Origin: Desulfobacterales bacterium
GTDB lineage: Bacteria; Desulfobacterota; Desulfobacteria; Desulfobacterales; UBA11574
Direction of reading: 5' to 3'
Length of the DNA stretch: 32,483 nucleotides
NCBI GenBank assembly: GCA_030145595.1
Contig: JAQYVG010000001.1
Span: 1 to 32,483 of the forward strand
Position numbers and translations under genes: made by a program. How positions within the stretch are numbered: position 1 is the first letter of the stretch; every line of letters begins with the position of its first letter. Below the pieces are notes generated by a model that ran no database searches, was not told the DNA's origin, and saw only the letters and a list, made by a program, of their open reading frames with translations. Of the stretch, positions 6,899-32,476 are shown piece after piece.

Positions 6899-6912
6899 TG
6901 ATTGATGATTTT

Positions 6913-6988
6913 CGATTGACGATTGTAGATTGGATAGTTGCGCCATCCGACAGGATGAAGCAACTTAATTAAGGCTTCAATCGTCAAT
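6913..6988 (+). repeat. nested inverted repeats between qmoB and qmoC
   Basis: The 120-bp qmoB-qmoC gap holds an outer 11-bp inverted repeat (ATTGACGATTG at 6915-6925 and CAATCGTCAAT at 6978-6988). Inside it is a second hairpin, AGTTGC/GCAACT (6936-6941/6960-6965) enclosing CATCC-GACA-GGATG (6944-6957). There is no T-run, so it does not look like a terminator. In the transcript it would form a long stem ending about 17 nt before the qmoC ribosome binding site. Confidence 0.75.
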
Positions 6989-7018
6989 ATTCAATATTCA
7001 ATAGTAGGAGGTATTCTT

Positions 7019-22596: not shown

Positions 22597-22684
22597 TGAT
22601 ATAGCTCCACGCAAACAAAAACGTTTTGTTGACTGAAAGTAATTCTATACAATATATACACTTAATTAACAACCTTCTATCAAT

Positions 22685-22801
22685 GTCCGTTGACAGTTGC
22701 CCGTTGCCCGTGGGAAAAAATAAGAGGTGGTTAGTGTCCATCCATAAATTTGGAATATTCAATAACTGCCGACCACTGACAACGGACCACTAACAACGGA
22801 C
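22685..22801. repeat. mosaic of dispersed repeats including TTAGTGTCCATCCATAAAT copy 2
   Basis: GTCCGTTGACAGT (22685-22697) and ACTGACAACGGAC (22775-22787) are inverted with one mismatch. A further CACTAACAACGGAC unit follows to 22801. Between them at 22731-22749 is an exact copy of the 19-mer found at 14601. The patch ends 8 bp before the next gene and must contain or abut its promoter. Confidence 0.8.
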
Positions 22802-22808
22802 ATCACTA

Positions 22809-23602: not shown

Positions 23603-23648
23603 TCCCTTTTTTGCCACGAAATTTACGAAGAACTACATTTTTTTTAAA

Positions 23649-23874
23649 TAGCCACAGACGCACACAGACGAGTCTTCGCTGCGCTACGCCCCCGCAAGCA
23701 GGCGCAGACTTTTGCCCTGCGGACATTCGCAGGGCAAAATCACGTATCGCTTCGCCAAAGAAGTGTAATTGGATAGCCCTTATATTTACCCGAAGGGCAT
23801 GACATCTAATAGTTTGCACTGCCTGTGGCAGTGCAAACTATTAGTCTGTGTAAGTCTGTGTGTGTCTGTGGCTA
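23649..23874. repeat. 226-bp hairpin-rich element with terminal inverted repeats
   Basis: Terminal arms 23649-23669 (TAGCCACAGACGCACACAGA...) and 23854-23874 are inverted with 20 of 21 bases matching. Inside are a perfect 12-bp hairpin (TTTTGCCCTGCG, 23710-23739), a GCCCT/AGGGC pair (23776-23798) and a perfect 18-bp hairpin with a 3-nt loop (CTAATAGTTTGCACTGCC, 23806-23844). No transposase is encoded, and the small ORFs inside look like chance. It resembles a non-autonomous miniature element or a structured RNA. Confidence 0.85.
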
Positions 23875-23900
23875 AATTGATTTTTAGCTTTGATTGGTGC

Positions 23901-23933
23901 AAAAAAATAGGGCCCGAAAAATTCGGGCCCTAT
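23901..23933 (-). terminator. intrinsic terminator of fhs
   Basis: A perfect 12-bp stem, ATAGGGCCCGAA (23907-23918) with TTCGGGCCCTAT (23922-23933), is followed on the minus strand by seven T. It lies 32 bp beyond the fhs stop codon. Confidence 0.93.
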
Positions 23934-32143: not shown

Positions 32144-32476
32144 CTCCAAAAGAGTTGGAGTAATCCTAAGGATTCAAGGGTCCAAGGATCCAAGGGTTCG
32201 AGTGAAATACTTTAAAATATCTATGCCTTAAAAGTTTTGCCGAAGTTGTATAGGCTATGTTTGCATCTATATAAAAAAACGAATTACAAATGTATCCTCT
32301 GAAGAAGAAAGGTTCAATTTAAAATTACAGAAAAGAAGGGCTGTCGCGGACATTTTATCAAGTATAGCAAAAGTTGAAAGGATGCTCAAAACGATGATAA
32401 AATCGATTGAAAGCAAACACTTGAACCCTTGACCCCTTGAATCCTTGGACCCTCTTCTCCAACTAAATTGGAGAAG
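32144..32476. repeat. long imperfect inverted repeat enclosing a small coding-like segment
   Basis: The left arm (32144-32204) reads CTCCAA...TTGGAG and then AAGGATTCAAGGGTCCAAGG through GGGTTCGAGTG. The right arm (32418-32476), read in reverse complement, has the same order of modules: CTCCAA...TTGGAG, AGGGTCCAAGGATTCAAGG and GGGTTCAAGTG. Each arm contains its own small CTCCAA/TTGGAG hairpin. The arms enclose about 210 bp with a coding-like fragment. Confidence 0.75.
32232..32432 (+). pseudogene. possible remnant of a four-helix-bundle (23S rRNA IVS-type) protein gene
   Basis: The plus frame open from 32232 to the stop at 32430-32432 has no ATG or GTG start. Its last 50 codons encode an amphipathic helical sequence (EEERFNLKLQKRRAVADILS, then KVERMLKTMIKSIESK) that resembles the C-terminal helix of the four-helix-bundle proteins found in 23S rRNA intervening sequences. 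The stop falls inside the right repeat arm. The 71-residue minus ORF over the same bases is taken as its shadow. The resemblance is from memory and may be coincidental. Confidence 0.25.

Follow-up and report, generated by a model that had tools for sequence, protein, structure and literature searches.

The nearest known kind of element to the 226-bp piece described here is the MITE. Like MITEs, the piece has terminal inverted repeats and is short, intergenic and devoid of a transposase or any other gene, with longer gene-bearing kin and site polymorphism between relatives. It differs from them in that its longer kin code for a PD-(D/E)XK protein instead of a transposase, and in that the termini are tandem arrays accompanied by internal hairpins with conserved loops. 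REP/BIME palindromes with their RAYT (TnpA-REP) and the ends of IS200/IS605 are alike in associating intergenic DNA hairpins with one small single-gene nuclease, but the protein here has the PD-(D/E)XK fold, and no tyrosine HUH protein was noticed in reading the elements. Foldback elements, such as Drosophila FB and Galileo, have long inverted termini made of short tandem repeats. The termini found here are also inverted and made of short tandem repeats, whereas the elements are bacterial and archaeal, far shorter, and associated with another protein. Finally, 23S rRNA intervening sequences and S23 four-helix-bundle elements are likewise small single-gene insertions, and intergenic genes of this family (PF05635) occur between inverted tandem arms, yet they differ by an unrelated fold, other arm sequences and shorter-looking repeat units. 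No description of elements like ours was found in the open-access literature, in which the partner protein family, TIGR04256/PF13366 (PDDEXK_3, GxxExxY), is mentioned just in passing and no link to terminal repeats was found; subscription papers and preprints fall mostly outside this coverage, so that the novelty of this widespread and apparently undescribed kind of element is provisional.

The 226-bp piece occupies positions 23649-23874 of the window, the whole stretch of 32,483 nucleotides of Desulfobacterales DNA that was analysed. It lies between two convergent genes, named from ORF reading as tRNA methyltransferase-like (trmL-like, + strand) and formate-tetrahydrofolate ligase-like (fhs-like, - strand). 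An earlier note on this DNA had described near-perfect inverted arms, two perfect hairpins and the absence of a transposase, and all three points were confirmed: the arms (23649-23669 and 23854-23874; 21 nt) are complementary at 20 of 21 positions, two hairpins pair without any mismatch, one at 23710-23739 (12 bp with a 6-nt loop) and one at 23806-23844 (18 bp with a 3-nt loop), and ORF reading revealed no transposase inside or beside the piece. The features of the locus are as follows:

23649-23669, + strand: left terminal arm, TAGCCACAGACGCACACAGAC, two tandem units of about 10 bp.
23670-23702, + strand: insert splitting the left arm, GAGTCTTCGCTGCGCTACGCCCCCGCAAGCAGG; missing at the trmL-fhs site in G001 and G006.
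23703-23709, + strand: CGCAGAC, the third unit of the left arm, displaced from the other two, by comparison with loci L030 and L031.
23710-23739, + strand: hairpin A, TTTTGCCCTGCG-GACATT-CGCAGGGCAAAA, with a GAC-type loop also present in relatives.
23746-23755, + strand: box, ATCGCTTCGC; the full family form is a mini-hairpin, ATCGC-TTC-GCGAT.
23776-23798, + strand: tail hairpin, GCCCTT...AAGGGC; family form TGCCC-TTC-GGGCA in the other-strand reading.
23806-23844, + strand: hairpin B, 18-bp stem and 3-nt loop (ACA on the - strand).
23844-23874, - strand: right terminal arm, three tandem units, GTCTGTGTAA GTCTGTGTGT GTCTGTGGCTA.
23907-23933, no strand assigned: flanking terminator-like hairpin, ATAGGGCCCGAA...TTCGGGCCCTAT, outside the element and kept at empty sites too.

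A 10-bp unit, CACAGACNCA, is repeated in short arrays to form both arms, and the consensus end of this arm family is (AA)TTAGCC. The window contains three matches to the arm motif, all within the 226-bp piece, for 0.16 expected by chance. A third unit (23844-23853) extends the right arm, and that of the left arm is separated from its neighbours by the insert at 23670-23702, in which a short repeat, GTCTTCGCTGCGCTACGCCCCCGCAAGCAG, is found that recurs at several places in the same genome and in G001 (L002, L003, L005, L008). The box is one base short of its family form, and the loop of hairpin B has diverged, since family loops are GAC.

Longer kin of the piece reveal what such arms can enclose. 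At loci L034, L037, L038, L045 and L051, arms of the window type flank a gene for a protein of about 120 aa that belongs to the GxxExxY family, far above the curated cut-offs for TIGR04256 and PF13366. A full copy comprises an arm of two to three 10-bp units, hairpin A with its GAC loop, the TTC-loop box ATCGCTTCGCG, the GxxExxY gene, the TGCCCTTCGGGCA tail hairpin, a mirrored hairpin B and the inverted arm, so ordered, with some copies lacking some of these parts; the box stands on the gene-start side and the tail hairpin on the gene-end side. The window copy has every part of a full copy except the gene: its arm type, subterminal hairpins, ATCGCTTCGCG box and tail hairpin are those of the family, and with no GxxExxY coding in 23649-23874 it counts as a derivative without the gene and not as a full member. 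Its identity and anatomy as a GxxExxY-family element are thus well supported by sequence comparison. We further consider it probable that the piece is a non-autonomous, MITE-like member of a family whose movement would be driven by the nuclease. Among 43 distinct paired CRCAGAC elements, a sample biased because some loci were fetched via the gene and others via the arm, the GxxExxY gene was present in 12 and absent from 31, and it was found in 12 of the 13 elements of at least 430 bp.

The association between the gene and inverted arms extends well beyond this arm type. Inverted arms with a score of at least 30 surround 54% of 81 GxxExxY genes of the phylum, whereas mismatched flanks give 3% and shifted dummy genes 2%. 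Across phyla, they were detected around 71% of 77 genes in named genomes, a set including Methanosarcinales (archaea), Bacteroidia, Planctomycetes, Chloroflexi, cyanobacteria and Treponema, against 9.5% for mismatched flanks and 1.1% for shifted dummy genes. The best period of 35 arms with a clear period was 10 bp in 24, 9 bp in seven and 8 bp in four, and the 20 nt outside the arms are 76% A+T versus 53% in the loci. Arm sequence correlates with GxxExxY protein similarity (Mantel rho 0.28; 0/2000 permutations), the CRCAGAC arms of the window type corresponding to one protein clade (MDINDxTYxINGAxFEV..); arms and gene are inherited together, so this co-variation alone is no proof of recognition. 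A plasmid search returned only eight records with a relative.

The structure model of the GxxExxY protein (pLDDT 95.9) most resembles, among solved structures, those of Cas4 SSO0001, lambda exonuclease, MGME1 and an archaeal Holliday junction resolvase, and the family has invariant catalytic-type residues (E27, D66 and E76xK78); both the fold and the E...D...ExK residues are those of PD-(D/E)XK proteins. A PDB sequence search with the GxxExxY profile gave no significant relative. Judging from the modelled fold and the invariant residues, the protein is thus likely a nuclease of the type acting on DNA ends or single strands. The earlier note had suggested recent mobility or a nuclease target. 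A mobile character and a nuclease target are the right direction, the arms matching those at the ends of elements with a PD-(D/E)XK gene and the hairpins keeping their pairing by compensating changes; how recent the mobility may be is discussed below. In the mechanism that we propose, the GxxExxY protein of the matching clade would recognise the arm array, at about one unit per helical turn, together with hairpin loops in DNA extruded as single strands or cruciforms, and would nick or cut there. The element could thereby be copied, or moved, into intergenic sites rich in A+T, and copies without the gene may be moved or maintained in trans. The window copy is probably recognised by such a nuclease.

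A competing explanation is an ordinary MITE, moved in trans by a conventional transposase of the IS or RAYT type, with GxxExxY as a passenger, perhaps selfish or defence cargo. The inverted termini, the copies lacking the gene and the polymorphic sites are all typical of MITEs, and in G034 and G241 many arm copies ride within another, TA-flanked high-copy MITE, so that other enzymes can move arm DNA. The intergenic four-helix-bundle genes (PF05635; L355-L384) have the same kind of flanks, with inverted tandem arms scoring at least 36 around 62% of 21 genes versus about 2% of controls; as these genes are unrelated to nucleases, this makes the nuclease a less certain mover. The ends of the piece are shared with GxxExxY elements. 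Against a conventional transposase, none was seen within the arm-bounded elements that were read; the arm sequence tracks the GxxExxY clade, and the termini consist of tandem 8-10-bp units in place of a single inverted repeat. On balance, we regard a transposase-driven MITE as rather unlikely and favour a family of GxxExxY elements moved by the nuclease. Arm amplification in G034 and G241 was considered as a sign of mobility and rejected, the copies lying inside the TA-flanked MITE, and these MITE-borne copies were left out of the hairpin and element statistics. This high-copy MITE (L196-L226) has the form TATACTGATCC...GGATCAGTATA, with CACAGAC arm arrays inside.

Within its own genome, the whole 226-bp piece is single copy, but elements of the same plan occur elsewhere: contig C57 has a complete one, C153 and C355 have further ones, and C216 and C183 carry partial ones. 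The earlier note had named a single-copy sequence with no homologue and with stems decayed in relatives as the case against its reading; homologues were found here, and the stems are kept. The GxxExxY genes and remnants read in this genome lie mostly between arms of other sequence types, and none was found between CACAGAC-type arms in the assembly (92% complete), for which reason the window copy is probably inactive today. A one-clade alignment (A2) served as the query of the search of genome contigs.

The trmL-fhs site was compared among relatives. The same element is present in G000, G001 (same genus) and G006 (same family); its G001 orthologue has about 300 bp inserted inside, and in the G006 orthologue both hairpin stems differ in sequence while pairing is kept. 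The nested G001 segment (L031, about 1578-1865) has inverted ends of its own near TTGGAGAGTTTT / AAACTTTCCAA, and nested palindromes, CCCCAGTGAAAT...ATTTCACGGGG and CCCCAGTTAAA...TTTAACGGGG, were seen in the genus and its relatives (L005, L045, L066). A mini-element with CACGAAG arms stands at the same site in G002 (same genus) and arms of the AAATCCCAAAT type in G019, G023 and G009; the site has thus hosted more than one kind of element. No element is present in G007, G008, G011, G012, G014 and G015, whose site comprises only 80-110 bp with the terminator-like hairpin. Two more sites resemble the trmL-fhs site in an occupancy that differs between relatives.

The earlier note had proposed recent mobility, which these comparisons do not support for the window copy: three related genomes share the element at the same site, and the insertion is therefore probably old. 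From the distribution of its orthologues, the copy probably predates the split of its holders, repeated insertion also being possible. A search for target-site duplications found the trmL-fhs sites too diverged between relatives, with no close pair of empty and occupied sites, and the L234 sites of relatives occupied by other elements; the compared sites yielded no clean pair of junctions at high identity.

The hairpins provide a further line of evidence. Stems of at least 11 bp next to the arms were found on 34 of 132 sides in the inward direction, against two outward and none after shuffling; the loops of these 34 inward hairpins are GAC-type in 25, with five more in reverse. Inside elements, the density of the box motif is about 24 times that of the loci overall. 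An alignment of 15 stems has pairing in all 167 cells, and both sides vary in 11 of its 12 pairs; its covariation score is 0.75 versus 0.18 when shuffled and at most 0.16 when slid. This hairpin set (A3) was picked for pairing; because its stems were found in this way, the fully independent evidence is provided by the G006 orthologue and by the orthologues at C57 in G000 and G001, which differ by a clean A-T to C-G stem change. The hairpins keep their pairing by compensatory changes, a sign of structural constraint or of correction. As a separate observation, elements with CGCAGAG arms (L101, L125, L061, L318) have varying stems and TGAGAGG-type loops, a parallel to the GAC loops of CACAGAC elements, so that loops seem to follow arm type.

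Such stems might instead belong to a structured RNA or transcription-termination element acting between convergent genes, by 3' end protection, attenuation or bidirectional termination. Its position between convergent genes and the compensating changes in its stems would suit this role, as would a very stable fold: region 23640-23885 folds as RNA at -126.8 kcal/mol versus a mean of -67.7 for dinucleotide shuffles (z = -12.85), with none of 200 shuffles as good. However, no Rfam family reaches its gathering threshold for the 226-bp piece, both orientations occur among copies, and the separate terminator-like hairpin at 23907-23933 is kept even at element-less sites. Beyond the loop-closing pair, G-T pairs are no commoner in stems than true mismatches, a test limited by hairpin selection bias. 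The selection for RNA structure that the earlier note had raised is therefore not shown, this low G-T share fitting DNA structure or templated palindrome repair at least equally, and an RNA element appears improbable.

Palindromes are known to correct themselves through replication errors, and perfect stems without function could arise by such templated correction. The piece might thus be non-functional debris of old insertions, its stems kept perfect by template switching (quasipalindrome correction), a view with which the diverged loop of hairpin B and the insert in the left arm of the window copy agree. Yet the GAC loop, the box and the tail motif keep their order across genera while stems change, and correction alone would not preserve a loop sequence, which makes debris a very doubtful explanation of a piece that we continue to place in the GxxExxY family.

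GxxExxY genes occur in bacteria and archaea, in many phyla and often in several copies, with no assigned role found, and genomes commonly have short tandem repeats in intergenic DNA that lack an explanation; linking each GxxExxY nuclease to its own arm array gives both a testable function. More tentatively, these genes and arrays may form widespread transposase-free mobile elements of bacteria and archaea in which a GxxExxY protein of about 120 aa, similar to Cas4 and lambda exonuclease, would be the sole mobility protein, acting on arrays of 8-10-bp units and on extruded hairpins with clade-specific loops. If so, many of the common short intergenic arrays (CACGAAG, CAGATTAA, CAGGATTA, CGCAGAG and CACAGAC types) would be the termini of such elements and of their gene-less derivatives. 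Should the nuclease be the mover, this would represent a single-protein, transposase-free mobility system and possibly a site-specific DNA tool.

Three further inverted pairs of short tandem units were noticed in the window, at 32169-32453, 22683-22803 and 6901-7002. The unit of the first, AAGGATTCAAGGGTCCAAGGATCC, resembles arms around four-helix-bundle genes in relatives (L360, L362). In one clade (L119, L124, L142), the GxxExxY gene begins within the arm, and ATGAACRCAGAT encodes its first residues, MNxD.
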